Virus record (IMG/VR): IMGVR_UViG_3300033141_003386 | Span: 1-42,771 of that record | Length of the DNA stretch: 42,771 nucleotides | Source of the DNA: a virus | Strand: one strand, 5' to 3' | In this document: piece by piece, positions 3,174 to 42,771 of the stretch | How the letters are laid out: the number at the start of each line of letters is the position of its first letter | Numbering within the stretch: position 1 is the stretch's first letter | Notes under the pieces: generated by a model | Database searches by the model: none | What the model saw: the letters and a program-made list of their open reading frames with translations, nothing else | Told to the model about the DNA's origin: nothing | Made by a program: the position numbers and the translations under genes

Positions 3174-4093
3174 ATGTATATCTTTTCCAGTCGCTCGATC
3201 TGCCGTCCCGCGTCGAACATTGCGATAGCGACATCGCGGAGTCGTTGCCCACAGTGTCGGTCGTACTTCGTTAGCTCCGCGGCCAGCGATGTAGCCGTAA
3301 ACTCCCGCCCGTAGCGACGGCCGCTGAAATTGGACATGGCAAACTCTTTAACCACACCCGGCGTAACCATACCGTCCCCGCCAAGATAGTCGTACACAAC
3401 CGGTATCCGCCCGCACATCATGGTCTCGATAACACCGCGCCCGAGACTGAACACGATACTGTGGCGGGAGATCATATCAGGCAGTGCATCTTGTGACATG
3501 AGGGTATCGCCGCCAACCACAGAGAGCGGAATCCCAGCCATTTCACACGCACCACTTATCACGGCCCGCACTTCCGGGGTGGCCCTATTGGACAACAACA
3601 ACGCGCTGTTGGGTTGTTCGGGCAACAGTTCCGTCGGCCGGAACAGATCGCTGTCAACGGGGTTCCGGAACAGACCTATCGGTGCCGCCGTTGTACCGCG
3701 CAACTTTAACCGCAGATTCTCTACGACCTCCTCGCTGACCCCAAGATAATATGCGACTTTCGTTTCCGGCCGAGGCGGCCGTTCGAGCTCCGGGATTACT
3801 CCGTGCGACATGTATACCATCGGGGTCTCGGGACAGAGCACCCGTGCAGCTTCAGCCATCGGGTAATGGTGGGCGTGAATGATATCGAACGGCCCGTCCA
3901 GACTGTTTCGACCGAGCACACGCACCGCCACACCAGCCTGTTCAAACCTCGGTAGAATAGTCTCTGTATCGAGACTGGCGGTCAAAACGGTAACTTCATG
4001 ACCGCGGCCAACAAGATGTTTCGCAATCGTATACGTACATACATCGCTACCGCTCCACGGCAGCAGCTGTTGGTTCGTCATCAGTACACGCAA
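3155..4093 (-). CDS. GT4-like glycosyltransferase (GT-B fold)
   Basis: 312 residues from the TTG at 4093, which has AAGGAGA six bases upstream and gives the family's usual opening MRVLMTNQQLLPWSGSD. An ATG at 4111 lacks such a site. Features of GT-B retaining enzymes are visible: the N-terminal nucleotide-like fold with HLVGRGHEVTVLTA, FDIIHAHHYPMAEAA, VSEEVVENL, FRNPVDSDLF at the domain link, and in the C-terminal half SLGRGVIETMMCGRIPVVYDY, where the usual E-x7-E nucleotide-sugar motif would lie. It overlaps the upstream radical SAM gene by 47 bp, so the two are translationally linked. Probable role: sugar transfer to a virion or host-surface acceptor; donor and acceptor cannot be seen. Last gene of the late operon. 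Confidence 0.87.
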   Translation of the reverse strand: MRVLMTNQQLLPWSGSDVCTYTIAKHLVGRGHEVTVLTASLDTETILPRFEQAGVAVRVLGRNSLDGPFDIIHAHHYPMAEAARVLCPETPMVYMSHGVIPELERPPRPETKVAYYLGVSEEVVENLRLKLRGTTAAPIGLFRNPVDSDLFRPTELLPEQPNSALLLSNRATPEVRAVISGACEMAGIPLSVVGGDTLMSQDALPDMISRHSIVFSLGRGVIETMMCGRIPVVYDYLGGDGMVTPGVVKEFAMSNFSGRRYGREFTATSLAAELTKYDRHCGQRLRDVAIAMFDAGRQIERLEKIYMAVQGR

Positions 4094-4928
4094 AACCCAT
4101 CTCCTTGGCACAGGCTGTACATATCGGGTACCGGCTATAATCGCCGGAACAAAACTCTGCCTGTACCCGACGCATAGCCGGACCGTTATAGATGTCGAGA
4201 ATAGGTGAGTCTAAGACGTTGCCGAACTCGGCTCGTGTGGTCTGCCGCCAATCATTACAACAGACTATAACAGTACCGTCCACCAGAATGCAAAAGTTTT
4301 GTGTAGGCTGTTCACAGAACGGCCCTGTGTTGAACCGCGTGTAATGCTGATTCGCGTACACGTCAGATACCGAGCCAGCCCTGCTACATGCGGCATGCAG
4401 TTCCAGCGGACAGTTCGGGAAAATCGTTTCAAACTCCGACCAATCTGTGTCTGGGATAGCCGGACAGTTTACACGAACATCCAACCGGCCGCCTGATTCA
4501 GCTACCAAGGCCCGTACATTCGACACTACCCTCTCGAAACTGAGTGTGGTCATTTGTTCGTATTGGCCTGAGTCTGAGGACGGTATGTGTATATGCACCA
4601 CCGACGGTCGAGCAGCGATCAACGCTGCACGTCGTTTCTCGTCAAGCAGACTGCCGTTTGTTGAGACGACTGTATAAGCACGCGTTTCTCTGTGTACCTG
4701 TTTCAGCCGGTCGGCAAGCGGCTCGTGCAGTAGCGGTTCTCCCTGCAAGTACAGGCCAACCTGACCGGTGAACTCCATCTCGACCATATCGTGCAGGATT
4801 TTCGACCAGACCTCATCCGACATATCCCTACGCGGCTCGTTGCGGTACGTCAACCTGTGTGGACAGTGTATACACCGAGCGTTACATGCCGTCGTCAACT
4901 GTACGAATATGGCTGCAGGATGGTTCAT
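4047..4928 (-). CDS. Radical SAM protein with SPASM-type C-terminus
   Basis: 293 residues. Cys15, Cys19 and Cys22 (ACNARCIHC) form the CxxxCxxC site for the SAM-binding 4Fe-4S cluster. LYLQGEPLLHEPL at about 59-71 is the GGE-like strand, and VVSTNGSLL follows. Cysteines at about 205, 213, 223-224, 260, 270 and 273 match a SPASM/twitch auxiliary-cluster domain (FCILVDGTVIVCCNDW). SPASM enzymes usually modify peptides or proteins. This one is coupled to the downstream glycosyltransferase and overlaps the endolysin gene by 4 bp, so it is expressed with late genes. That is unusual for a phage and suggests modification of a virion protein, a host-surface component or a made peptide. No small precursor-peptide gene is evident beside it. 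Confidence 0.88.
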   Translation of the reverse strand: MNHPAAIFVQLTTACNARCIHCPHRLTYRNEPRRDMSDEVWSKILHDMVEMEFTGQVGLYLQGEPLLHEPLADRLKQVHRETRAYTVVSTNGSLLDEKRRAALIAARPSVVHIHIPSSDSGQYEQMTTLSFERVVSNVRALVAESGGRLDVRVNCPAIPDTDWSEFETIFPNCPLELHAACSRAGSVSDVYANQHYTRFNTGPFCEQPTQNFCILVDGTVIVCCNDWRQTTRAEFGNVLDSPILDIYNGPAMRRVQAEFCSGDYSRYPICTACAKEMGFACTDDEPTAAAVER

Positions 4929-19574: not shown

Positions 19575-19774
19575 TTGCTACGTCTCCTTCTACCAGCCGA
19601 CCGATGTGTTGTTCGTCGGGTAGACTTTCTGCCGGTAGGTTTCCATCCATGCTTCACGCCACGTAACAGACGAATAGCCCTGTCAGCAGCGGCCGGGCTG
19701 CTACACCGCTGTTTCACACGCCACGAGCCGCCCTTCTTGTGGAGCACTGAGCCCCCTCGTCGTTTGTACGGCAT
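19571..19774 (-). CDS. Small basic protein
   Basis: 67 residues from ATG 19774 (MPYKRRGGSVLHKKGGSWRVKQ). Strongly basic, with RLLRGVKHGWKPTGRKSTRRTTH. The pattern GGSV-x-KKGGxW-x-VKxR resembles small basic proteins that sit between capsid and tail genes in other phages, role unknown. An upstream in-frame start inside the previous gene is rejected. Its 3' end overlaps the adaptor start by 4 bp. Confidence 0.6.
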   Translation of the reverse strand: MPYKRRGGSVLHKKGGSWRVKQRCSSPAAADRAIRLLRGVKHGWKPTGRKSTRRTTHRSAGRRRRSK

Positions 19775-20603
19775 CGGTCGATTCTCTCCCTTCCGTACGA
19801 ATAAAAGCGTCCAGCCAGTCTCGGGCTTCTGCGATTCGTTTCTCGTTCGCATCGGCATCGTCTGCCGGCCAGTACACCTCTGCAAACTGCTTCTGGTAAT
19901 GCCGCTCGTTAATCACCATCGGCAGCCGCGATACATGATCGACAATAACTCCGCTGTGCACGTTCAGCTCGTACCCAAGCTGTTTCAACTGCCAGCTGAT
20001 AGCCATATCGACGCTGAACATCGAGTTGATCTTGAAGATGCTTTCACCGCAGTTGCGCCAATACGGACTTTCTTCTTCGATCCGGCGTAACGCGTCCATA
20101 CGGATCAGCGTACAGCCTAACCCGGTTCCATCAACCGAGATAATCCTGTTCTGCGGATACGTACGGAAATTGATATACGCCCGGTGATCGCTCTGGAACT
20201 CGCCGCGCCGTTTAGACGCCATCTCACTGTCGGCTTCTTTGAACAGCAACGGCCACGGCTCTTCCGGTTCGTTCAAGAAATACAAAGCCGCCAGATGGTC
20301 GAGGTTCCGCCGTTTGACCGTCGCCCACATCGTCGTGAACGTATGACCTTTACTTTCCGGCATCATGTCGGCTTCAAACGCAAAGAACCAGTCTGCACCA
20401 TAATCTTTCGCAGATTCGTAACAGCACTGGTACGCCAACTCGATGTTGCCCGTCTGTACGGTCTTAAACGCTACATCGACTTCAGGGAACGCTCGACCGA
20501 ACTCAAACCAGTTCAGCGAACATCTTAACCGGGCTATCTCGGCACATATCTGCGTATAGCTGGGGGTCGCCACAAAAATGCGCTCTTTACGTGTTGTCAA
20601 CAT
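19701..20603 (-). CDS. GT-A-like glycosyltransferase
   Basis: 300 residues from ATG 20603; a GTG at 20618 is possible. The N-terminal IFVATPSYTQICAEIARLRCSLNWFEFG and YESAKDYGADWFFAFEADMMPE are a GT-A nucleotide-sugar fold, with EAD in the place of the DxD metal site. VDGTGLGCTLIRMDALRRIEEESPYW is the usual acceptor-side strand, and SVDMAISWQLKQLGYELNVHSGVIVDHV resembles the catalytic segment with a possible base (D or H). Glycosyltransferases of this shape are found in some phages between head and neck genes. Probable target: a virion protein or host polysaccharide. It overlaps the small basic gene downstream by 74 bp. Confidence 0.8.
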   Translation of the reverse strand: MLTTRKERIFVATPSYTQICAEIARLRCSLNWFEFGRAFPEVDVAFKTVQTGNIELAYQCCYESAKDYGADWFFAFEADMMPESKGHTFTTMWATVKRRNLDHLAALYFLNEPEEPWPLLFKEADSEMASKRRGEFQSDHRAYINFRTYPQNRIISVDGTGLGCTLIRMDALRRIEEESPYWRNCGESIFKINSMFSVDMAISWQLKQLGYELNVHSGVIVDHVSRLPMVINERHYQKQFAEVYWPADDADANEKRIAEARDWLDAFIRTEGRESTDAVQTTRGLSAPQEGRLVACETAV

Positions 20604-20863
20604 ACCGTGTATACCCACTCCCGCAGTTTCGACCGGTTAAGATGTCCGGCCAGAACAATTATGACCAACAACCTCAGCAACAGTCGCAGTTTTGTACGAC
20701 GATGAAACGACTCTACCCCGAACATCACCGGTAACGCGCCGCATCGAGCACATTTGTACCCGTCTTGTTCGACCTGGTCCCGGATATACGGGTCATACGC
20801 GATGGCCTTACACCGTGCACACATTGCCCAACTGTCCGGGTCCAGAAACCTGGCTGGATTCAC
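20597..20863 (-). CDS. Zinc-ribbon protein with one membrane segment
   Basis: 88 residues from a GTG with GGAGGT upstream. CARC and CARC (residues 15-18 and 38-41) form a paired CxxC zinc ribbon. LRLLLRLLVIIVLAGHL (about 59-75) is one hydrophobic segment. Function unknown. It overlaps the glycosyltransferase by a few bases in the late operon. Confidence 0.6.
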   Translation of the reverse strand: MNPARFLDPDSWAMCARCKAIAYDPYIRDQVEQDGYKCARCGALPVMFGVESFHRRTKLRLLLRLLVIIVLAGHLNRSKLREWVYTVC

Positions 20864-21381: not shown

Positions 21382-22422
21382 CTACGCGGCTGCCGGCGCA
21401 TCTATACCGTAGATGACCGTTTGGAACCGCGGGTTAGTGCAGAACAGCTGGTGCGCAAGGAAGAATCTGGTGAACAGCGAGAACTGTTCGTCGCTTTTAC
21501 GCCACTCGTCTGCGGTAAAGTTCAGACCGGCCATCCGGTACCATTTCAGGTACTTGAGGTTGAGGATATAGACGCCATGACCGGTTTCGTTGCTGGCGCC
21601 CGGCTTATAATCCTCAATGTAATCGTCAACGAGGATCGGTAGACCGCGGAACACCGGGAATACAAGGCCAAGATCACCTTTGTTCCCACCCCGCGGCATA
21701 TCTTCCTGCACGAGATTGAAGGTCTTGAACCCGACCTTTTCCATGTACCCCATAACCGTGTTACCGGTGATGATAACCGAGTTTAGGGCATTTTCCAGAT
21801 CGTTCTGTGTGGCTTTCCGAATATACGTCGACAGATGGTTGATCAACTTGTTGTCGTTGACGCTACCGTCAGAGTTGTACGTATAGGCAGAGCCACAGTC
21901 CTGTACGTTGTTACGCCACCACGAATAGGTCGCCCGGTTGATGTTGGCATACGTCCCGGTCGAATCACCGTTGTACGGTACAGCTGATTTCAACCCCAAA
22001 AAATGGGTGCCTGTATCGAACATCAGTTTACTGACCTTCGTGCGCATCGTCCGTTTGGCATGTTCGGTTTTTGACCGTTGCAGATCGGCGATCTGGTCAG
22101 GGCCTTTTGCCTCATATATGTCCGCACGGTCGCACACTATAGGAACCTGCAGGTACGCCCAATTCATTTTCGCGCCTTTGAACGGATCGGTTTCGACCGT
22201 CGTCAGCACTTCGTACCCGTCAAACTCCTGGGACAAACCTTCTTCTACTTCTAACCGGACATCGAGCTCACGTCCACCTTTCAGGATAACGCTACCAGCT
22301 CGTTCCATTTTTCGCAGCAACGGGTTACCTTCGTACCATGTGTTCTCCATACGGGGCAGAATCGTTGTACGAACGTGTGCCCACATCTGGTCAAAGGTTC
22401 TGGTATCGGTTATTGCTGCCAC
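21382..22422 (-). CDS. Major capsid protein (HK97-fold type)
   Basis: 346 residues, GTG start at 22422 with GAGGAG upstream. The pattern FDQMWAHVRTTILPRMENTWYEGNPLLRKME, then KGAKMNWAYLQVPIVCDRADIYE, ENALNSVIITGNTVMGYMEKV (P-loop/A-domain) and VFRGLPILVDDYIED, FSLFTRFFLAHQLFCTNPRFQTVIYGI at the end, is that of HK97-like phage capsid proteins. Length and place after the scaffold fit. It forms the shell; no prohead protease is seen, so maturation cleavage is doubtful. Confidence 0.88.
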   Translation of the reverse strand: MAAITDTRTFDQMWAHVRTTILPRMENTWYEGNPLLRKMERAGSVILKGGRELDVRLEVEEGLSQEFDGYEVLTTVETDPFKGAKMNWAYLQVPIVCDRADIYEAKGPDQIADLQRSKTEHAKRTMRTKVSKLMFDTGTHFLGLKSAVPYNGDSTGTYANINRATYSWWRNNVQDCGSAYTYNSDGSVNDNKLINHLSTYIRKATQNDLENALNSVIITGNTVMGYMEKVGFKTFNLVQEDMPRGGNKGDLGLVFPVFRGLPILVDDYIEDYKPGASNETGHGVYILNLKYLKWYRMAGLNFTADEWRKSDEQFSLFTRFFLAHQLFCTNPRFQTVIYGIDAPAAA

Positions 22423-22451: not shown

Positions 22452-23444
22452 CTACCCGCCGGGCATCATGCCTGCCGGAATATCACCGGCACTTATTTCG
22501 GTCGCGCGCGAGACTTTCTCTGTTATCTGTTTCCACGCGTCGTCGATGGTTTCGGGTTGAGAACGGCGACCCGGAGAAGCGCTGCCCGGCACCGGCAGAT
22601 GAGCCGCAACGTTACGGGAGTTACCTCCCGGAACCTGCTGTTGCTGTGCTGCCAGACTGGACATAAGATCAGGCTGTTCGGCATGTTTCGCGCCAGCTAC
22701 CATCTGGAACTGAACCTCAATAGGCAGCTGCCAGAAATATGTGCCGTTCGGGAAACGTACCGTACGTTGCCGTTCTCGCACCTCATCCAGGTACTGACTC
22801 ATGTGTGGGTGGGCGGTCGTATACTCCATTTCCTTCTGTCGCAAGACAGACTCGGCAAGCACGGCCTGTTGCTGTTGTATGGTTGCCTGTAACGCCTGAA
22901 GTTGCTTCTGAACTTCAGACTGTTCACTGGCAATCCTGCTCTTTGTCAGATGGTCCAGAGCGCGGAGAGCCGCGCCCGGATCGTCCGGATTCTGCTCGAA
23001 TATCTGTCGAGCTTCAGCAAGAGGGTCGCTTGTCGGTCCAGCTTGTCCCTGGGTAGAGGGAGCATTTTGACCTGGTGCGCCGTCTATAGAGGGGTTTAGA
23101 ACTGCGGCAGACATGACATGTTCCAGTTTGGAACGAGCTTCTGCCGGTAACGATAGAAGCCTCTCACCCAAATGCAACGCCTCTTCTTTGCCGCTAAACC
23201 GTCTCTTTAGTTCGGCTGCTTCTTGTGCATACTTTGTCCATCGGCTTTGTTCGGCTCTTGCCGTCAGGTCACGAACGGAGTTGACAAGCTCTTCAACTTC
23301 TTCGCCATACGACCCATCAGGCAACGATTCGCGGAACGCTCCAATCCGGCGTTCCAGATTTTCCCTGTCGATCTCCAACTGCGTCAGATCGTCAGGCGTT
23401 TGTTCAGACCCGTCAGGAGGCTGAACGTCAAACTGATTACCCAT
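22452..23444 (-). CDS. Scaffold-like protein
   Basis: 330 residues, ATG 23444 with AAGAAGGGG upstream. Acidic N-terminus; about 20-110 is charged helix (EIDRENLERRIGAFRESL, LTARAEQSRWTKYAQEAAELKRRF). About 175-215 is a Gln-rich coiled coil (SEVQKQLQALQATIQQQQAVLAESVLRQ), and the C-terminal tail is Pro/Gly-rich with a helix. This layout, directly before the major capsid gene, is that of a phage scaffolding protein. No protease motif is present. Confidence 0.75.
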   Translation of the reverse strand: MGNQFDVQPPDGSEQTPDDLTQLEIDRENLERRIGAFRESLPDGSYGEEVEELVNSVRDLTARAEQSRWTKYAQEAAELKRRFSGKEEALHLGERLLSLPAEARSKLEHVMSAAVLNPSIDGAPGQNAPSTQGQAGPTSDPLAEARQIFEQNPDDPGAALRALDHLTKSRIASEQSEVQKQLQALQATIQQQQAVLAESVLRQKEMEYTTAHPHMSQYLDEVRERQRTVRFPNGTYFWQLPIEVQFQMVAGAKHAEQPDLMSSLAAQQQQVPGGNSRNVAAHLPVPGSASPGRRSQPETIDDAWKQITEKVSRATEISAGDIPAGMMPGG

Positions 23445-23475: not shown

Positions 23476-23685
23476 TCAGGTTGCTTTTACCTGCACATCC
23501 GCGTTGAGGATGCACCTAACCGCAACCGGATCAACTTCGCATCCGTGAAGTTCCTGTACTTTTGCCACCAAAGCGGAGACCGTTTCGTCGGGAAACCGAT
23601 CCCGAGCGGCTATCTCCGCATCTACACGCTGTTTCAGAGCCGTTAAATCGGCGTCTGTGAGACCCGTTATGTTTACTATTGCCAT
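23476..23685 (-). CDS. Small hypothetical protein
   Basis: 69 residues from ATG 23685, with GGAGAAGG upstream. MAIVNITGLTDADLTALKQRVDAEIAARDRFPDETVSALVAKVQ is a compact helical protein; no family recognised. An ATG 24 bases further upstream lacks a site. It follows a two-hairpin element (23713-23790). Confidence 0.6.
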   Translation of the reverse strand: MAIVNITGLTDADLTALKQRVDAEIAARDRFPDETVSALVAKVQELHGCEVDPVAVRCILNADVQVKAT

Positions 23686-23712
23686 GTCCTTCTCCATTCG
23701 ATCCCCCAAAAG

Positions 23713-23790
23713 AAAACGACCTACACCTCAATGACCTGATCAGGTGAAGGTCGTTTTTCTCTTTTTACATCGCGTGCGGCCTACACGCGA
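23713..23790 (-). promoter_or_regulatory. Two-hairpin element, copy upstream of the scaffold/capsid genes
   Basis: Hairpin A: AAAACGACC (23713-23721) and GGTCGTTTT (23749-23757), with the palindrome ACCTGATCAGGT in its arm and loop. Hairpin B: TCGCGTG (23770-23776), loop CGGCCTA, CACGCGA (23784-23790), seven perfect pairs. Read on the minus strand, B comes first, then A followed by T-rich sequence, then the next start at 23685. Bases 23734-23755 are identical to 28077-28098. Compare the copy at 28059-28123: B has the same 7-base loop but a different, still perfect stem. Probably a weak terminator, processing site or antiterminator site in the late operon. Confidence 0.7.
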
Positions 23791-23810
23791 ATATAGTCTA
23801 TGGGGGATAT

Positions 23811-24176
23811 TTAGTTATCTATACGCTCTCCTTGTCGTCCCGCTGCACCCACATGATCGTACGGCTGCACACCTGTAATACGTGAAAGCTCATCTTTCGA
23901 CACAATATGATAGTTGCCTCGTGCCAGAACACTCTCGACCTGCCGGTGTGTACGGACTTCTGGCGGTCGTTGTCCCGGTAACACACTATGGATCAGAGCC
24001 TCTTGGACTTCTGCCCTTGCACCCGGACCCAACTCCGTAGAACTCGGCCGTTCACTCATATAATCTCGTGTACACCGCCTGTCACATCGGGGACACTTGG
24101 CGGATCGACGGTGTTTTATCGTACGCTGCACGATAAACACGCCATGTTCCGGACATTTGAACACGTACTGTGGCAT
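23811..24176 (-). CDS. FmdB-like zinc-ribbon phage protein
   Basis: 121 residues. MPQYVFKCPEHGVFIVQRTIKHRRSAKCPRCDRRCTRDY is the FmdB/CxxC zinc-ribbon start found in many phage genomes near the portal and scaffold genes. The C-terminal part is helical. A virion or assembly role is suggested by place; unknown in detail. The start lies just after the portal stop. Confidence 0.72.
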   Translation of the reverse strand: MPQYVFKCPEHGVFIVQRTIKHRRSAKCPRCDRRCTRDYMSERPSSTELGPGARAEVQEALIHSVLPGQRPPEVRTHRQVESVLARGNYHIVSKDELSRITGVQPYDHVGAAGRQGERIDN

Positions 24177-24178
24177 AG

Positions 24179-26392
24179 TTACCCTTGTTGCATCCTTCCG
24201 AGATAGTTTGCCAACTGACCGGAACCGCCTTCTCCGGCCGTGGCATAAGCCGCATCAACGTTACCGCCACCGTACGGGGAAGCATTCGGACCACTGTTGC
24301 CGTTCCCGTTACCACCAGACTCGTTTGGCCCGGGCAACTGTAACAACTGGTTGGGCGGCGCACCTGTAAATACCTTGTCGATGCCGGGAATATCCCAATC
24401 GGCAAGAACAGACCGCCACGATTCGAGCAACCCTTCGGCATTGATTCGTGCACCCAAGCTCGGGAACAGTTGGATCAGCATACGAACCTCTTGAGTAAAC
24501 TCCATAAGCGTTCGCAACTTCTCCTGCCGACGCAAACTTTTCATCCGGGGTGTAGTCGACTCTTCCCGCATCTTGTACGAGAACCTGCGTGCAATCATGC
24601 TCGGTTCAAACCGCACGGCTACAGGCGGCATACCCGGCTGTTGCTGGACAGGTACAAGCCGGCCGGGACCTTGATAGAACTGCTGTATCATATTGCCCTG
24701 TACCCAGGCCGACCGCCCGATAAATATACCGATAGCCTGGAACATCCGCTCTAACCCGACTTCACGCTGTTGCGACAACGTATGAACTTCTGTAGCCGTA
24801 CGTTTCGACGGTAACGGTTGACCTATACCCAGCTCATTTTCGTTGCTCTGTTCTCGTATCTCCTGCCGTAAATCCTGTTTGTGGATATACATGTCCTGGC
24901 TGACAGGTTCGGGTTTGATTGGCAGAATCGGACCTCTACCGGCAGTCTGCGCCAAGATAGAATTAAGCCCTTCTACAGGTACAAGCGCATCCGAACGAAG
25001 CGAACTTAACGTGCTTCCCAGATTCTGGCTCAACATTGCGTCGATAAGCTGTATATTCTTGCCCTCGACACGGGCCTGACGCATAATGGCCGCACGTACC
25101 AGCAGATATTCTTCGACTATCGGGCGCCATGTGGCTACATCGTCGTTCGGATACTGGCCGACAACCGGTCGATTCCAACTCAAATACGAGAACGGCAAAT
25201 ACGGGACACCGTCAATATCCCTGTACGGCAACTCATCATAATACAACGGTGCATGAGCGTTATCGGTCAGTATTAAAACGCGGTTGTTATACTTCCGACC
25301 GCGCAACAGCGGGTCTTTCTTTATGAAAATGGTCCAGACCAGGATACGTCTGTCAATATTATCCCGATTCTCACGATCTGAATCTGTCGGCCCTTCCGAC
25401 GGTGGCGGCGATATCTCGTCCCGGTTATAGTGCATAAGGTTCTTATAGTTGTGCAGTATATCTTCACCGCTGCCGGACCCGTCCTCAACATCCTGCAACC
25501 GCCGCCATTGTTTACGTTCTCGAATCTCGTGTACGCTCATCCATTGACCGTATGCAGCCCACCGGGCGTCTGTTATACGTTTAGCTTCCGGGTCCATAAG
25601 AAACAGCCACGGATAAATCGACTTACCCCAAGGCTGGTCGGCGATCACGCCCTCGTCATAATAGAAAGTCGGGTCGTCCGGCGCTATCGTGCTGGTTGGT
25701 CTAAGATCGGATTCGATATACGAAATCAATGTGGTATCCGTCGGTGACAGCGGAGATATAAGCTCGTGTACATGCCCGGTTTTCTGGTCCTCTTGCATAT
25801 ATCCGGCTTCAATCTCGTGGAAATGCCCGTCTTTTGCATTGGCAGTCGTCCGGCCGTCACCATCCCCGTCAATCCTGTATCCGTGCGAATGCTTGTTCGC
25901 GGCCCCGGTAAACCCATAGTACAGTTGGGTCGCATCTTCGTTCGGGTTATATGCAGGCATTACACCATACCCATGAACCTTGACACCGTACCCGAACATA
26001 ATCGTGTTGGTAATCGCGTCCAAATCCTCTTGAGCTTGACCCGTACGTTTCCACAGATCGTTGATCAACACTTCCATAACTTGGCTGGATTGTCGTGCTG
26101 TGAACCCGCCGGAACCAATCTGCGTGTCCTGCAGCATATCGGATTCGGTCGGAATAACGTCGATCTGCGGTTCGTGCAGGTATAATGCCGAGAGACGAGC
26201 ATGTAGATGCTGTACGATAAAGTTCGGAGTAGCAATAGCGCCGGACCGGTATCCGTCTCTATCGAGTATGGCCGGCCGGTGCATCATCTCGATGGTGCTG
26301 TTCCACTGTTGACGCCGTTTATCCTGAAGGGCAACCGCCTCTTTAATGAGGTTTACCCACCGACGCGTATTATCTCTGCTAAGTTGCGTCAT
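24179..26392 (-). CDS. Portal protein
   Basis: 737 residues; the start overlaps the terminase stop region, with GGAGG upstream. The chain has the long helical form of a podovirus/siphovirus portal with the segments AIATPNFIVQHLHARLSALYLHEPQI, WATYGQWM-like helices, the stem RPIVEEYLLVRAAIMRQARVEGKNIQLID and the wing-to-crown KSLRRQEKLRTLMEFTQEVRM. The dodecamer forms the DNA gate. Odd: residues about 167-215 hold a His-rich insertion (NKHSHGYRIDGDGDG, then GHFHEIEAGY and GHVHELISPL), a possible metal-binding loop. Confidence 0.88.
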   Translation of the reverse strand: MTQLSRDNTRRWVNLIKEAVALQDKRRQQWNSTIEMMHRPAILDRDGYRSGAIATPNFIVQHLHARLSALYLHEPQIDVIPTESDMLQDTQIGSGGFTARQSSQVMEVLINDLWKRTGQAQEDLDAITNTIMFGYGVKVHGYGVMPAYNPNEDATQLYYGFTGAANKHSHGYRIDGDGDGRTTANAKDGHFHEIEAGYMQEDQKTGHVHELISPLSPTDTTLISYIESDLRPTSTIAPDDPTFYYDEGVIADQPWGKSIYPWLFLMDPEAKRITDARWAAYGQWMSVHEIRERKQWRRLQDVEDGSGSGEDILHNYKNLMHYNRDEISPPPSEGPTDSDRENRDNIDRRILVWTIFIKKDPLLRGRKYNNRVLILTDNAHAPLYYDELPYRDIDGVPYLPFSYLSWNRPVVGQYPNDDVATWRPIVEEYLLVRAAIMRQARVEGKNIQLIDAMLSQNLGSTLSSLRSDALVPVEGLNSILAQTAGRGPILPIKPEPVSQDMYIHKQDLRQEIREQSNENELGIGQPLPSKRTATEVHTLSQQREVGLERMFQAIGIFIGRSAWVQGNMIQQFYQGPGRLVPVQQQPGMPPVAVRFEPSMIARRFSYKMREESTTPRMKSLRRQEKLRTLMEFTQEVRMLIQLFPSLGARINAEGLLESWRSVLADWDIPGIDKVFTGAPPNQLLQLPGPNESGGNGNGNSGPNASPYGGGNVDAAYATAGEGGSGQLANYLGRMQQG

Positions 26393-28039
26393 TTAGTTCA
26401 GCCTCCCATCCATACGAAACTGCTCGACCCGATCCCAATTCCATTGTTCAGGCGGCAGATCGTCCATATGCCCCATAGTCGCTATCACCATCGGGTCAGG
26501 ATCATCGCTCTGAAGCTCTCTGATCAACAGCGCGTGCGACGGGAGTTTTATAGAGCGAGACTGGCGCAGTTTCGGTACGGCATACTCCAGACCCATAGCC
26601 AGCGAATCGATAATATCCATCGTACCCAGGGGATACTCGACAAAGGCGTCGATGATAGGTTTTGTAACCGGCGACCGGTTACACAGACGTAAACTATGCC
26701 GCTGAACCGGCCCCTGGCACCGGAGAATCCTCATTTCTTTGCTCGCTTGGTGATACCGAATAACCTGGATCGCCGGTACGTAGTCGCCAACCTCGATAAG
26801 CCGGTCAAGCTCGTCTTTCAACGCCTCGTTACTGATCTGTTCAATAATCATCCAGACAGCTTTCCATTTCGCACCAAGCTCGTATGCGATCGATGCCAGC
26901 TCCCGTGTGCTATACTTACCCAACGCGCCGTCTACAACCCACGGTTGGCCGAGTACATCCAGTCCCAGAACAACTATCCCGGATTTACTGGAACCACGAT
27001 GTTTGAAGAATCCCGGGTCAACTATCACGGCATAGTTGCTGTCATCCGGACCTAACGTCGAGTTTGTACGACACAACTCTAAATCCTCCAGCCGGAAGGC
27101 TGCCGTTTCGGGATCGATTGGGTCCATGAGATACTGCGAATGGTAATACGCGCTGCCCATGTTGTCCCGAATCTCTGCAAGGGTTTCTTTCGAGAGAACC
27201 GACGGACACAACAGCTTATCGGGTTCATTGTTGGGACCTCGTTCGGCGCTCCGTTCTACAACAAACATGCTTGGTATCCGCACTTTTGCCCGGGCGTACA
27301 GGTCGCGTACGGCCCAGCGTGTACCGATATAGTCGTTATGAGCCTCGTCAACGGGGTACATGAGCGGAAACGTACGCTTATCCCATTCGTCCAGAGCGTC
27401 TAGTTGTTCGGATGTAGTAGCGTTCTTCTGGTCTTGCGGATCGTCTTTCTTCAACCAGAAATAATGGTTGGACACAACATGCTGTTCAGTACCGACAGCG
27501 GTAAACGTACCTTCACCGAAATTGGCTTTACGGTTCGGTACAACACAACTCGATTTCGTGCCCCACACTTCCCCTTCAGGCGGCGCCATCTCGGGGAACA
27601 GACGACGCAACCGGACGTTATGTAGAAACTGCCATTTAATCTCGGCCAACATACGTTGCGCGTTTTCCAGTTTTGACGACATGATGGCTATACGAATCCA
27701 CTCACCGTACAAAGCCGCCAACCGGATAGAATCTGCTATGGTCAACAGCGTGGTTTTGAACGTACCGCGTGGTACCAAAAACATCCTGTACCGGAGATGT
27801 TCGGTATCGGTCACTATCTTGCACAGTTGTCTGTGCCACGGAGTATCAATGTCCCGGTAACCGAGAATGTCATGAGCCAGAAAGAACAGATCATGTTTGG
27901 CAAGTTCCCGTTCCATAGGCATAAGTTCCGCGTCAAGCGCATGTAAATCCAGTATCTCCGGGTCAATACCCGCCGGAAACGGATCGATCTTGTACGTATT
28001 TTCCGGGTCGATTCCGGGCTCTCGCTCTTCGTCCGACAT
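26393..28039 (-). CDS. terL: Terminase large subunit
   Basis: 548 residues. The ATPase part shows the Walker A LVPRGTFKTT (residues 88-97) and a Walker B-like FWLKKDDP (194-201). The nuclease part has Asp341 (VIVDPGF), Glu400 (WMIIEQ) and Asp475/478 (DIIDSLAMG). These are the usual motor and RNase H-like motifs of a headful- or cos-type TerL; the packaging mode cannot be told. The start is 20 bp after a hairpin element (28059-28123). Confidence 0.92.
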   Translation of the reverse strand: MSDEEREPGIDPENTYKIDPFPAGIDPEILDLHALDAELMPMERELAKHDLFFLAHDILGYRDIDTPWHRQLCKIVTDTEHLRYRMFLVPRGTFKTTLLTIADSIRLAALYGEWIRIAIMSSKLENAQRMLAEIKWQFLHNVRLRRLFPEMAPPEGEVWGTKSSCVVPNRKANFGEGTFTAVGTEQHVVSNHYFWLKKDDPQDQKNATTSEQLDALDEWDKRTFPLMYPVDEAHNDYIGTRWAVRDLYARAKVRIPSMFVVERSAERGPNNEPDKLLCPSVLSKETLAEIRDNMGSAYYHSQYLMDPIDPETAAFRLEDLELCRTNSTLGPDDSNYAVIVDPGFFKHRGSSKSGIVVLGLDVLGQPWVVDGALGKYSTRELASIAYELGAKWKAVWMIIEQISNEALKDELDRLIEVGDYVPAIQVIRYHQASKEMRILRCQGPVQRHSLRLCNRSPVTKPIIDAFVEYPLGTMDIIDSLAMGLEYAVPKLRQSRSIKLPSHALLIRELQSDDPDPMVIATMGHMDDLPPEQWNWDRVEQFRMDGRLN

Positions 28040-28058
28040 GTCGGCTCCAAAAGAAAAA

Positions 28059-28123
28059 AACGACCGTTCACCACGAACCTGATCAGGTGAAGGTCGTTAA
28101 TCTATCGGCTGCGGCCTACAGCC
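28059..28123 (-). promoter_or_regulatory. Two-hairpin element, copy upstream of terL
   Basis: Hairpin A: AACGACC (28059-28065) with GGTCGTT (28092-28098), plus an inner stem; it carries the same ACCTGATCAGGT palindrome (28077-28088). Hairpin B: GGCTG (28107-28111), loop CGGCCTA, CAGCC (28119-28123). On the minus strand hairpin A is followed by TTTTTTTCTTTT, a terminator-like run, then TerL. It is the second copy of the element at 23713-23790: the loop is unchanged while the B stem changed on both sides. Confidence 0.7.
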
Positions 28124-28135
28124 TAAATTCTGCTG

Positions 28136-28711
28136 TTACCCTTCTTGTGTTGCAGCTATTTCTTTCAGTACAGGTTCAAACTCTCTCAATCGTTCAAACC
28201 GCGCCAGTACATTCTCCGCCGTAATATGTCCCGCCGTCCCGGGCACATTAAGATTGGCGTTGATATGACGGTCCGGCGCTTTTGCGCCTGTCATGCTGAC
28301 CCACAACTTCGCTGCACTTAACTGTGTCCCATGATCCGGCCGGCTGCCAACCTGTTCACCTTTGACGACAATCGGCCGTTCGGCTTCAAGCGCGTCACTC
28401 ACAACTCGCGCAACTTTCTGTGGGGTGGCACCGGCTTCCGACAAAGCGTCCAACATACGTTCGTAGACTTCCGGCAAAAGTTTTCTGGCTCGGTACCGGG
28501 AAATACCTGTACGCCGGAGCGCTTCCTTGACATTACCGTTGGTCTCGCATAAAGCCTCGGTCAGGTCTGCTTTTGCACACTCCGCCTTTACAACGGCGTT
28601 CTGACGTGCAAGATCGGTGGGACGAACTCCGTTACGGGTGGCGTGTGCCGCATAAAACTCTATGGCGCGACGCCGTCTCTCTGCTGCTGAAAGTTTCCGT
28701 GTGTTCGACAT
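28136..28711 (-). CDS. terS: Terminase small subunit
   Basis: 191 residues. The N-terminal and central helices (KADLTEALCETNGNVKEALRRTGISRYRARKLLPEVYERML) form an HTH that can bind DNA. The segment GATPQKVARVVSDALEA, then PDHGTQLSAAKLWVSMTGAKAPDRHINANL, is common in phage small terminases. First gene of the late operon, directly before terL; it selects the packaging site. Confidence 0.8.
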   Translation of the reverse strand: MSNTRKLSAAERRRRAIEFYAAHATRNGVRPTDLARQNAVVKAECAKADLTEALCETNGNVKEALRRTGISRYRARKLLPEVYERMLDALSEAGATPQKVARVVSDALEAERPIVVKGEQVGSRPDHGTQLSAAKLWVSMTGAKAPDRHINANLNVPGTAGHITAENVLARFERLREFEPVLKEIAATQEG

Positions 28712-28851: not shown

Positions 28852-29244
28852 ATGTCAAGCCGAGCCAGGAAAGTCAAACGCACTACACAAAAAGAACGAT
28901 CTCTGCAAGACCATCTCAGCGGAGCGGCATGTATAGCATGTCCGTGTTGGTTCCCGGAAACTGGAGAATGCCGGGCAATACCGCCACAACCCGCACAACA
29001 CGTCAAGATGAGTAGCATGTTGAGGCCTGGAGTTAAACCCGAGGTTGAACCGTACCGTGTATGGCCGCGAACATCGCCGTTTGAAGATTTCTGTTACCTC
29101 CACGCCAACAAATTCTCTGTGGAACTAGCACGAGAACGGTTCGAGACCATGCAAAAGGAACAAGCTGAACGAACTCGATCCGACAGCGATCAACCTCAGG
29201 GAACAGGCGAAAGAGATACTGGCGATACCAAGACGGATAGATAA
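28852..29244 (+). CDS. Cys-rich early protein
   Basis: 130 residues from ATG 28852 (MSSRARKVKRTTQKERSLQDH), the first gene after the plus-strand promoter. CIACPCWFPETGEC (about 28-41) and a later FEDFCYLHANKF could bind zinc or Fe-S. The C-terminus is charged and helical (RERFETMQKEQAERTR). No family recognised; first early product, possibly a host-takeover or regulator protein. Confidence 0.68.
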   Translation: MSSRARKVKRTTQKERSLQDHLSGAACIACPCWFPETGECRAIPPQPAQHVKMSSMLRPGVKPEVEPYRVWPRTSPFEDFCYLHANKFSVELARERFETMQKEQAERTRSDSDQPQGTGERDTGDTKTDR

Positions 29245-29253
29245 GAACTGAAC

Positions 29254-29333
29254 CCCGGCAGGCGGGAGCGTTCCCGGTCCGAGTTGGCCGGTACGCTCGA
29301 TCCGGCGACGCGGTGTAGTTCCCGCCTGCCGGG
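29254..29333 (+). promoter_or_regulatory. Long-stem inverted repeat before a small gene
   Basis: CCCGGCAGGCGGGA (29254-29267) and TCCCGCCTGCCGGG (29320-29333) are a perfect 14-bp inverted repeat with a 52-base interior. Inside, GCCGG (29287-29291) pairs with CCGGC (29302-29306). It lies ten bases after the previous stop, and the next gene follows with AAGGGGGTG at 29346-29354. There is no T-run, so it is likely an mRNA structure or leader rather than a terminator. Confidence 0.6.
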
Positions 29334-29360
29334 ATAACCCAAAGAAAGGGGGTGAAACCC

Positions 29361-30621: not shown

Positions 30622-30740
30622 ACGTCCACCCTAAACCCGAAAAACCACGTTCTACCGGATACCTGAACGACAAACGTAACCCCGCCCGTATGAAACACTG
30701 TGCCCAGTATAACCAGCTGGCATATCCCCAAGAGAATAAC

Positions 30741-31138
30741 CTGTACCCCTACCACACCCTACCTGTACCCCAAAAAAATTTTTCTGTACCCTTAGAGGTG
30801 AGACTCTTGACCTACCGAGGCCGGGTGGGGGGTGGCGGTCGGTTCTCGCGCGTGCATCCTGTACCCCAAGGGTGCATCTACGCCCCTAGGGTACAGACTG
30901 TACCCCAAACAGAAAGCGTGTACGGGGTACCACCTGTACCCCAAGAGTACAACTGTACCCCATACGTACAAACTGTACCCAGCACAGACAACCTCCTAGG
31001 GTACAGTCTGCACCCTCCAAGACAAATCTGTACCCAAGGGACCAATCTGTACCCCTAAGGGGAGGACTATCCGCTGTGTGGGGTACAGAGACAGGCATAA
31101 AGGGTACAGTATCCCTGCATAGGGTACAGACTGTACCC
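30741..31138. repeat. Array of CTGTACCC octamers in a convergent gap
   Basis: Perfect octamers, plus sense: 30741, 30763, 30784, 30859, 30898, 30934, 30953, 30973, 31028, 31047, 31131. Reverse sense (GGGTACAG): 30889, 30999, 31081, 31102, 31122. That makes 16 within 398 bp, with variants at 31008. Steps of 19-22 bp recur, and three pairs form GGGTACAG-N-CTGTACCC or a near copy (30889, 30999, 31122). The region 30622-31194 has no convincing gene. It lies between the plus-strand early genes and the end of integrase, so it is not a promoter region. Partition site, stoperator, arm-type sites or another protein-binding array are all possible. Confidence 0.8.
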
Positions 31139-31194
31139 CCCCTATAGTCCCCCCGTAGAGTGCCTGTTGCGGCAACTCGTAGATACCGCACAGA

Positions 31195-34136: not shown

Positions 34137-34408
34137 CAGACTTCACCAGACAGCAGGACGCCAGGATATTCCGGGCGAAACGCGAGGCTATGGGGCTAAC
34201 GGTCGTTCAATGTGCGACCGCTCTCGGGACATGGATACGTACCCTCAAACGCATTGAGGCGGGGCAGACCGGCAGCAGCCGGGTGTTGCGTATGTGTATC
34301 TGTCTGTTGCTGATAGTGATTCGGCACGGGTTATGGCACGAACTGACCGACGCTGATAAACGATGGGTATATGGACGCCGGGAGAAAAAAAGGAGGGAAT
34401 TGCAATGA
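34121..34408 (+). CDS. XRE-type HTH protein
   Basis: 95 residues from ATG 34121 (MRRRIADFTRQQDARIFRAKREAMGLT), overlapping the previous gene by 16 bp. REAMGLTVVQCATALGTWIRTLKRIEAGQTGSSRVLRM is a helix-turn-helix of the XRE class; a hydrophobic stretch follows. Likely a Cro-like regulator of the operon. An earlier in-frame ATG at 34100 is less likely. Confidence 0.7.
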   Translation: MRRRIADFTRQQDARIFRAKREAMGLTVVQCATALGTWIRTLKRIEAGQTGSSRVLRMCICLLLIVIRHGLWHELTDADKRWVYGRREKKRRELQ

Positions 34409-37297: not shown

Positions 37298-38155
37298 ATG
37301 GAAAGAGGGTATATCAAGATACCAGTCGGGTTTGTCGAGGCAATCGCACGAACGCGGTTGCCCGGTACGGAGATACGAGTCTTGTTGGTGATCGCCAGGA
37401 AAACGTGGGGATGGGGCAAACAGAGAGACCGAATAACCCTATCTCAATTCGCCGTGGCAACGGGCTTGAGGAAGCAACATATCCTTCGTGCACTCCGTCG
37501 TTTGACCCAAGAAGGCCACGTTACCAAATATGGTAACAAACAACACGTAACTTATGGTATCTCAAAGCGTTACACCGCAGCCGTTACCACCGATGGTAAC
37601 AACTGCGCCACAACTACAACCACAACAGACACTTGCGTACCATCGTTACCAAATACGGTAACGTTACCAAATATGGTAACAAGCGTTACCAAATATGGTA
37701 ACAAGGGGGTCCCGCCCGCGGGACCCACAATAGATACTCTTACAAAGAATACTTATACAAAAGAAACTCTTTCTTTGTCAGAACTCCTGCTGAACCTCAT
37801 CCTGGAACGGCAACCCAAACTCAAACGACCAAAGATCGAGAAGTGGGCCGTTCATATCGACCGAATGATCCGGATTGACAAACGGACGCCCGAAGAAATC
37901 AAACAAGTGATCCGCTGGTGTCAACAAGACGACTTCTGGCAGTCCAACATCTTGAGCACAGCCAAACTGCGGGAGAAGTTCGACCAACTTCAGGGCAGAA
38001 TGATATCGGAGGGGTACAGTGCAAACTACAATAAAGAGGTCATGGACGAACGCGCTGGCCGGCAACAACTCTACGACGAAGCAGACCGACGTCGAAAAGA
38101 GCGCCGCATTAAGCGGGAAAGCGGTCGGTCTGTTCCGCAGCCGGTACGTACCTAA
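37298..38155 (+). CDS. O-like replication initiator
   Basis: 285 residues. Residues 1-100 are the phage O N-terminal winged helix (YIKIPVGFVEAIARTRLPGTEIRVLLVIARKTWGWGKQRDRITLSQFAVATGLRKQHILRALRRLTQEG). The middle (about 75-145) encodes five 18-bp DNA iterons, and the C-terminus (TPEEIKQVIRWCQQDDFWQSNIL) probably meets the helicase loader. As in lambda, the initiator gene contains its own origin. The loader gene overlaps it by 137 bp. Confidence 0.87.
   Translation: MERGYIKIPVGFVEAIARTRLPGTEIRVLLVIARKTWGWGKQRDRITLSQFAVATGLRKQHILRALRRLTQEGHVTKYGNKQHVTYGISKRYTAAVTTDGNNCATTTTTTDTCVPSLPNTVTLPNMVTSVTKYGNKGVPPAGPTIDTLTKNTYTKETLSLSELLLNLILERQPKLKRPKIEKWAVHIDRMIRIDKRTPEEIKQVIRWCQQDDFWQSNILSTAKLREKFDQLQGRMISEGYSANYNKEVMDERAGRQQLYDEADRRRKERRIKRESGRSVPQPVRT
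37520..37780. other. Lambda-like replication origin inside the initiator gene
   Basis: Five 18-bp palindromic iterons of the form GTTACC-N6-GGTAAC lie at 37520, 37583, 37645, 37663 and 37685 (ends +17), three of them GTTACCAAATATGGTAAC. They are followed by GGGTCCCGC-CC-GCGGGACCC (37707-37726), a strong hairpin, and by an AT-rich stretch to about 37780. Iterons plus AT-rich unwinding region in the O gene is the lambda ori plan. The hairpin may be a priming or helicase-loading site. Confidence 0.85.
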
Positions 38156-41321: not shown

Positions 41322-42771
41322 ATGGGCGATAAACGCGTTAAATCAGAGCATGTTATTGGTCTAAACAGTTCCCATGATAGTGTCTTTGCCACTCGCTCCA
41401 TAGAAGATATCTACGCCGAGGTTGTTGGTCTCTACAAAAGCGACCGCCGTCACTGGGTAATTGGGTTCAGCGGTGGCAAGGACTCGACTGTTACGCTTCA
41501 GTTGGTTTGGGAAGCTCTGGCACGACTCCCAGAACATGAACGCACAAAGCCCATCCATGTCATTTTTAGCGATACCTTTGTTGAGGCTCCCGTCATCACA
41601 GCCTACATCGGAGGTATACTAGATAAGATCAATGCCGCAGCAAGCCAACAGAACATACCGATCACTGCTCACATTGTATTTCCGCGGCTACAAGATACCT
41701 TCTGGGTCAACATGATCGGGCGTGGTTATGCCGCACCGTATCGACGGTTTCGATGGTGCACAGATCGACTCAAGATACAGCCCGCCAACCGATTCATCGA
41801 AGAGAAGGTTGACCATCACGGCGAGGTCATACTGGTACTAGGCGTGCGTCGTGCCGAGAGTGCCACACGCGCACAGGTAATGAGTCTTCATCGTAAGCCC
41901 GGCGATCTCGTCTCGCGACATTCGTCGCTTCGAAGTGCGTGGGTCTACGCGCCCATTGAGTTCTTCACGACAGATGACGTTTGGAGTTACCTGCTTTCGG
42001 TTAGGTCGCCTTGGGGAGCAGACAACAAGCAACTTCTTGCAATGTACCGCAACGCTCAGGCAGGCGAGTGCCCCCTGGTGGTTGATACCACGACGCCGTC
42101 GTGTGGGAATAGTAGGTTCGGTTGCTGGACATGTACCGTTGTCGAGCGAGACAAGTCCATGGAAGCGATGATTGATAGTGGTGACGAATGGATGGAACCA
42201 TTGTTGGCGCTTCGAGACTGGCTTGCGAACACGCGCGATCCGGAATCAAAACATGAATACCGTGAAGTGCGCCGAAGAAATGGACGTATTCAGCAATGGG
42301 GCGAGAATCAGGATCGAATCGTCTGGGGGCCCTACAAACTTGAGATTCGGCGAGATATCCTCCGCCGACTCCTTCAGGCTCAGGAAAAAGTCCGCCAAAC
42401 GGGCCCAAATCCGGATCTGCAGCTTATTAGACTAGAAGAGCTTCATGAGATTCGCCGAATCTGGCGGGTTGAGGAAGGTGATTGGGAAGATTCCGTTCCT
42501 CGCATCTATAGGGAAGTAACCAAACAAGATATCGAGTGGGTTGAAGAGGATGCACCTGCATCAAGCGAACTTGATGATCGTGTACTTATCGAGGTATGTG
42601 CGGAGAAAGAGGTTCCTGTGGGGCTCATGCGAGAGTTGATCGATCTTCAACGAAAGTTGCAAGGGCTTGGGCGTCGGTATGGCGTACAGAACCAAATCGA
42701 GAAGATTCTCAAGAAGGACTGGCGTGACCCACAGAAGGTTTTGGCAGAGATAGGTTGGACACCAAACGGAG
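41322..42771 (+). CDS. dndC: DndC-like phosphorothioation sulfurtransferase, 5' part (runs off the right end)
   Basis: Start ATG at 41322, preceded by a strong AGGAGG. Through the circular joint it reads to a stop at 175-177, giving 504 residues, the usual DndC size. Residues 50-56 are SGGKDST, the PP-loop of the PAPS-reductase/ATP-pyrophosphatase fold. Cysteines at about 250, 261, 268 and 271 (the last three in CGNSRFGCWTC) match the 4Fe-4S ligands of DndC; a further Cys is at 146. In Dnd systems DndC activates DNA with ATP and passes on sulfur from DndA for phosphorothioate modification. No dndA, dndB, dndD or dndE is present, so a host Dnd/Ssp system or another use must be assumed. The gene is poor in GTAC compared with the phage, which suggests recent acquisition. 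A phage PAPS-reductase-like protein is the alternative name. Confidence 0.88.
   Translation, partial: MGDKRVKSEHVIGLNSSHDSVFATRSIEDIYAEVVGLYKSDRRHWVIGFSGGKDSTVTLQLVWEALARLPEHERTKPIHVIFSDTFVEAPVITAYIGGILDKINAAASQQNIPITAHIVFPRLQDTFWVNMIGRGYAAPYRRFRWCTDRLKIQPANRFIEEKVDHHGEVILVLGVRRAESATRAQVMSLHRKPGDLVSRHSSLRSAWVYAPIEFFTTDDVWSYLLSVRSPWGADNKQLLAMYRNAQAGECPLVVDTTTPSCGNSRFGCWTCTVVERDKSMEAMIDSGDEWMEPLLALRDWLANTRDPESKHEYREVRRRNGRIQQWGENQDRIVWGPYKLEIRRDILRRLLQAQEKVRQTGPNPDLQLIRLEELHEIRRIWRVEEGDWEDSVPRIYREVTKQDIEWVEEDAPASSELDDRVLIEVCAEKEVPVGLMRELIDLQRKLQGLGRRYGVQNQIEKILKKDWRDPQKVLAEIGWTPNG
42660..42771. repeat. Terminal redundancy, right copy
   Basis: Exact copy of bases 1-112. The dndC reading frame that starts at 41322 is in register here: 42660 is the first base of a codon, as is base 1. 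Joining the ends gives a circle of 42,659 bp. Confidence 0.95.

Follow-up and report, generated by a model that had tools for sequence, protein, structure and literature searches.

Two copies of an RNA element of about 80 bases, each formed by a small hairpin (H1) followed by a second hairpin (hairpin 2) and a U-tract, were found on the minus strand of the window (the whole stretch of 42,771 nt analysed here), and their sequence, predicted folds and position suggest that they are probably duplicated intrinsic terminators within the late operon of a temperate podovirus-type phage, the upstream H1 having been duplicated together with them. Most simply, they can be read as a pair of ordinary internal terminators plus an extra hairpin. 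The copies, A and B, are 4,343 bases apart (Table 1). Their coordinates and the repeats that they share bore out the original prediction of two copies about 4.3 kb apart, one before terL and the other before the scaffold/capsid genes; the duplication is real.

Table 1. Features of the two element copies and of the neighbouring late genes
Feature	Position	Strand	Sequence or structure	Score or evidence
Copy A, whole element	28049-28129	-		
Copy B, whole element	23708-23795	-		
Exact repeat, copy A	28077-28098	-	AACGACCTTCACCTGATCAGGT	
Exact repeat, copy B	23734-23755	-	AACGACCTTCACCTGATCAGGT	
H1, copy A	28099-28129	-	core GGCTG-(TAGGCCG)-CAGCC at 28107-28123	dG -10.5, z -2.2
H1 lower extension, copy A	within 28099-28129	-	A/U stem AAUUUA/UAGAUU with GA bulge	
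H1, copy B	23766-23795	-	core CGCGTG-(TAGGCCG)-CACGCG	dG -13.3, z -2.7
H1 lower extension, copy B	within 23766-23795	-	UAUAU/AUGUA	
Hairpin 2, copy A	28059-28098	-	AACGACC TTCACC ... GGTGAA C GGTCGTT	d 31.2, z -4.8
Loop region of hairpin 2, copy A	within 28059-28098	-	carries TGATCAGG	
U-tract, copy A	28049-28060	-	TTTTTTTCTTTT	first two bases also stem-paired
terL Shine-Dalgarno	directly after copy A U-tract	-	GGAG	
Hairpin 2, copy B	23715-23755	-	AACGACC TT CACCT ... AGGTG TA GGTCGTT	z -5.4
U-tract, copy B	23708-23716	-	TTTTCTTTT, then GGGGG	GGGGG a possible Shine-Dalgarno
Outer pairing, copy B only	23802-23808 with 23701-23707	-	ATCCCCC can pair with GGGGGAT	minimum free energy fold
Terminase-small-subunit-like gene, before copy A	28136-28711	-		position and HTH-like stretch, no family match
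Terminase large subunit gene (terL), after copy A	26393-28039	-		phrog_38, 2e-49
Portal-like gene	24179-26392	-		by position, no family match
Small zinc-ribbon-like gene, before copy B	23811-24176	-		PF09723, below cutoff
73-aa gene, after copy B; scaffold-like gene; major capsid gene	23476-23697; 22452-23444; 21382-22422	-		block evidence phrog_9953, 2.6e-29

A direct repeat of 112 bases at the ends of the contig is as expected for a circular or terminally redundant phage genome. A 16-base exact repeat (TTGGGCGTCGGTATGG) occurs at 8-23, 1299-1314 and 42667-42682, twice via the terminal repeat and once internally. The genes of the contig include those for an integrase, a repressor-like HTH protein, RecT, an O-like and a DnaC-like protein, with the late region on the minus strand, and the integrase together with the repressor-like HTH gene suggest a temperate phage. 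The late genes run in the order small terminase, terL, portal-like, small zinc-ribbon-like, 73-aa, scaffold-like and capsid, resembling the modules of Mx9, BUCT555 and Bradyrhizobium phage; terL and capsid were the only ones with family matches, and the portal, scaffold and small terminase were named by position. Copies A and B occupy gaps of 96 and 113 nt respectively, the largest between the small-terminase-like and capsid genes, gaps elsewhere in the late region being mostly shorter than 60 nt; a late gap of 126 nt (19575-19700) had no copy of the element. The late region also carries radical SAM-like (4047-4928) and glycosyltransferase-like (19701-20618) genes of low similarity, which are possible auxiliary genes.

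The exact 22-mer common to both copies (AACGACCTTCACCTGATCAGGT) ranks with the longest dispersed repeats of the contig, and its chance expectation was 0 in shuffled sequences even when three mismatches were allowed. Both copies also contain an exact 11-mer, TGTAGGCCGCA, that is absent from the rest of the contig, and both kept the tract CTTTTGG ahead of the ribosome-binding site.

The 22 identical bases attributed to the second hairpin in the original prediction were thus confirmed, but the hairpin itself proved to be a different one: the palindrome ACCTGATCAGGT (ACCT/AGGT), which had been proposed to form it, had a pairing probability of ~0.0 in each of the full elements. Hairpin 2 spans about 40 bases; A and B do not differ in its seven outermost pairs, and its inner CACC/GGTG pairing was kept in both copies despite substitutions and indels in the 3' arm. 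Much of the palindrome falls in the loop of this AACGACC...GGTCGTT hairpin, and it pairs with itself only when the transcript stops short of the 3' arm, as was seen for B. As duplex DNA, ACCTGATCAGGT is a perfect palindrome of 12 bp that occurs nowhere outside the two copies, and it could be read as an operator or a recombination site. Such a DNA-level function is extremely unlikely, because there are just two sites, none of them near the repressor or integrase genes, and the arrangement of the U-tract would be left unexplained; moreover, the changes seen in H1 keep pairing and not sequence, which argues for a folded strand rather than an operator read as sequence.

In both copies, hairpin 2 is a stable stem-loop with G-C pairs near its base, and the T-rich stretch that had been noted after it corresponds to a U-rich tract directly 3' of the stem. 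The d'Aubenton-Carafa score (blind to factor-dependent terminators) was computed over the whole contig on both strands, and four sites had d above 0: copy A (31.2), copy B on the minus (4.3) and plus (7.0) strands, and a minus-strand site at 34391 that is borderline (2.1). Copy A scores highest among the intrinsic terminators of the genome and copy B is a modest pass on the minus strand, so that the proposed terminators were recovered at both places, strongly for A and modestly for B. By this score, the element supplies essentially all intrinsic terminators of the 42.8-kb genome; a looser terminator scan of the contig listed many further weak stems. Hairpin 2 of copy B is terminator-like on the plus strand too, because it has A-rich/U-rich flanks on both sides. 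The U-tract of this copy can pair with A-rich upstream sequence, which would weaken its terminator.

The possibility that a promoter separates the U-tract from the next gene was considered and discarded, as the Shine-Dalgarno sequence is a few bases beyond and leaves no room. The genes beyond the U-tracts would then depend on read-through, barring a promoter within the element or upstream of it. The ribosome-binding site found after both copies could also point to a translational operator, in which an RNA-binding protein (e.g. a terminase or head protein) would bind the fixed H1 loop and repress the next gene, and in copy B the predicted outer stem closes the element and can mask the possible Shine-Dalgarno sequence GGGGG. 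We consider this very unlikely, since H1 is well upstream of the start codon with the stable terminator stem between them, and copy A lacks a comparable masking stem.

That the downstream genes must be expressed though a stem directly precedes them would be accommodated if the late mRNA were cut within the stem of hairpin 2 (e.g. by RNase III), termination being unneeded. Such an intercistronic processing or stability element would leave the upstream piece with a protective hairpin and provide terL and the 73-aa gene with a U-rich leader. Stems of at least ~12 bp that are interrupted by a bulge or internal loop (that of B being longer through an A/U extension) and the kept CTTTTGG tract are consistent with processing. 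It is nevertheless an unlikely explanation, because a U-tract after the stem is the exact arrangement of a terminator and an RNase III substrate would usually have a longer stem than that of copy A.

If the two hairpins are intrinsic terminators, as we favour, hairpin 2 and the U-tract would stop or thin transcription before terL in copy A and before the 73-aa/scaffold/capsid block in copy B. Read-through would be either leaky, lowering stepwise the terL and then the scaffold/capsid transcripts, or carried out by a lytic RNA polymerase made terminator-resistant, which would lift the block during lytic growth. In the prophage state, these terminators would shield the head genes from stray transcription. 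Terminators located inside a virion operon can determine how much head protein is made and keep its production silent in a prophage.

Terminators within operons are known from other systems. Conjugation operons with conAn combine internal terminators with processive antitermination against stray transcription (PMC8955417), and lambda tR'-type late terminators were also predicted in the temperate podovirus YA3 (PMC7326022). The element described here resembles these in having a stable stem and a U-tract to be read through, and differs from them in its two copies, its identical 5' arm and the kept-loop hairpin in front, as well as in that no antitermination protein was identified in this genome. 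RNA sequencing of the T7-like phage LUZ100 revealed sequential read-through across phage terminators (PMC10134795). LUZ100 is also similar in having a strong terminator in the virion gene block and read-through over terminators elsewhere; its terminator is located after the major capsid gene, whereas those of the window precede terL and the scaffold/capsid block (PMC10134795).

With regard to H1, the 7-base loop TAGGCCG was found in both copies on differing stems, as originally described, and these stems are real. The loop is possibly closed further by a U-G pair, and the stems can be extended downwards in both copies by A/U pairs that differ between them. The pairing probability of H1 was ~1.0 in copy B, whereas H1 of copy A was moderately stable (~0.2 in a short context and 0.89 with more upstream RNA). 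Three of the five aligned stem pairs are unchanged and the other two differ by compensatory changes on both sides; the chance that two random right-arm substitutions would repair both pairs was 1.1%, 0.4% or 0.2% for arms of 5, 8 or 11 bases. In a two-row covariation shuffle control, which has no power because it compares two sequences alone, the observed value was reached in 117 of 500 shuffles.

The original prediction had taken a kept loop on a changed stem as the mark of a selected RNA fold. As a stand-alone argument, the shared loop was refuted by 40 loops of 7-9 nt common to hairpins of at least 5 bp in the contig; the significance of H1 comes instead from its adjoining the exact 22-mer in both places. 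The compensated pairs did hold and are suggestive, not decisive, of a selected fold, a claim that draws on two copies and two such pairs since no further copy and no close relative was found. H1 is not required for a terminator, yet it was copied along with it and its pairing outlived sequence change, which argues for some use; as an intrinsic terminator needs no H1, the terminator alone explains neither its co-duplication nor its compensated stem. H1 may serve in pausing, factor binding or RNA protection, or have no role; our preferred guess is that it acts as a hairpin for pausing or factor contact, by which the following terminator is tuned.

H1 and its fixed loop could also act as a recognition element deciding read-through of the adjoining terminator, with a local nut/put-like logic in which the recogniser would be a phage or host protein or RNA polymerase itself; conditional attenuation would be a further form of it. 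Two ~80-nt two-hairpin RNAs per genome recall putL/putR of HK022 (PMC9378689), the loop is kept over two compensated stem pairs, and a terminator is directly behind each H1. However, the put RNAs of HK022 follow early promoters, their stems join at a bifurcation, and the terminators that these RNAs act on lie further downstream (PMC9378689). Both systems have two related copies per genome, of ~70-80 nt and with two stem-loops (PMC9378689), but the copies described here are deep in the late operon, between late genes and not after a promoter, and their second stem is itself the terminator. Instead of meeting at a bifurcation, the H1 core and hairpin 2 are separated by linkers of 8 and ~15 nt, varying by 8 nt between the copies and firm only for B, as the extended lower stem of H1 closes the linker in copy A.

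No antiterminator that clearly pairs with the 5' arm of hairpin 2 appeared in the predicted folds, and the covariance model R1 had no match up to E 5 in the HK022 genome (a weak test with a two-sequence model). No boxA of lambda nut type (CGCTCTT-like) was seen on reading the stretch before each H1. A six-frame search of the phage's own genome for the Q families PF06530 and PF03589, which a divergent Q would escape, found none, a result that we also count against the terminator reading, as such a protein would explain lytic read-through. The two compensated pairs would be expected by chance at about 0.2-1%. Thus the element fails most of the features of a nut/put-type antiterminator testable here, contrary to the analogy first drawn, and H1 as a recognition element is improbable. 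That H1 is a new cis-acting switch for read-through, with RNA and not separate promoters gating terminase/portal and scaffold/capsid expression, is quite improbable. If the kept-loop hairpin matters, it would be a compact case of a phage with no recognisable Q passing its own stops; if it does nothing, the elements would be an ordinary terminator pair.

The searches for further copies and for relatives covered collections that may omit records near the window's own, and absences refer to the data searched. No further copy of the element was found in IMG/VR, INPHARED or GTDB genomes, the motif scans of the collections being exact, with no mismatches allowed. Two of these scans had no match and another gave 33, with the GGTCG partner in 0 of 33; the loosest gave at least 118 stretches, none among the matches listed having both stems and a U-tract, and three matches in GTDB had no terminator stem and were judged coincidences. 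BLASTN of each element against INPHARED produced only ~25-base matches with E of 0.4 or worse. No Rfam family matched above its gathering score, Thr_leader (E 0.026) reaching 21.6 bits of the 55 required. The SAS/ESAS of Cluster K phages are likewise inverted-repeat elements before genes, of unknown function (PMC3203893), the ESAS being multicopy, imperfect repeats of 17 bp that are linked to a SAS of 13 bp close to the start codon (PMC3203893); the 13-bp SAS (GGGATAGGAGCCC) was absent from the start site on reading both leaders.

Close relatives were found neither by megablast of 12 kb against INPHARED nor by scanning IMG/VR for peptide patterns of terL, portal and capsid, and the portal protein had no relative in 786 genomes, drawn from two phyla picked arbitrarily, or in three single genomes. 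An alignment scan with terL gave 28 loci at 22-35% identity, none of which had the element motif. When model R1 was run on 18 records (13 of the terL-related loci and five annotated phages), its single match, a weak one (E 0.058), was inside a terL coding sequence as judged by its coordinates. The occurrence in relatives proposed as a check was therefore not seen in distant relatives, a negative that cannot count fully because no close relative was found. In phage MW202554.1, terL (L003:32005-34542) shows no similarity beyond its N-terminal ATPase part, and another terminase-like gene is located downstream, so that its terminase looks split or intein-interrupted.

Other repeats and folds were observed in the window. 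Within the replication O-like gene, three nearly identical palindromic repeats (GTTACCAAATATGGTAAC; 37505-37704) coincide with the most stable local fold of the contig and resemble a lambda-type origin carrying iterons. The stretch 30727-31139, directly past the integrase gene, contains repeated CTGTACCCC blocks, as well as a 20-base palindrome (TAGGGTACAGACTGTACCCC) at 30887 and 31120, and these repeats are perhaps operators or integrase arm sites. A 12-base tandem repeat of about ten to thirteen units (1309-1464) overlaps a plus-strand open frame, and a very stable local fold on both strands (z ~-5.8) was detected at 29241-29351, upstream of the small-terminase-like gene.
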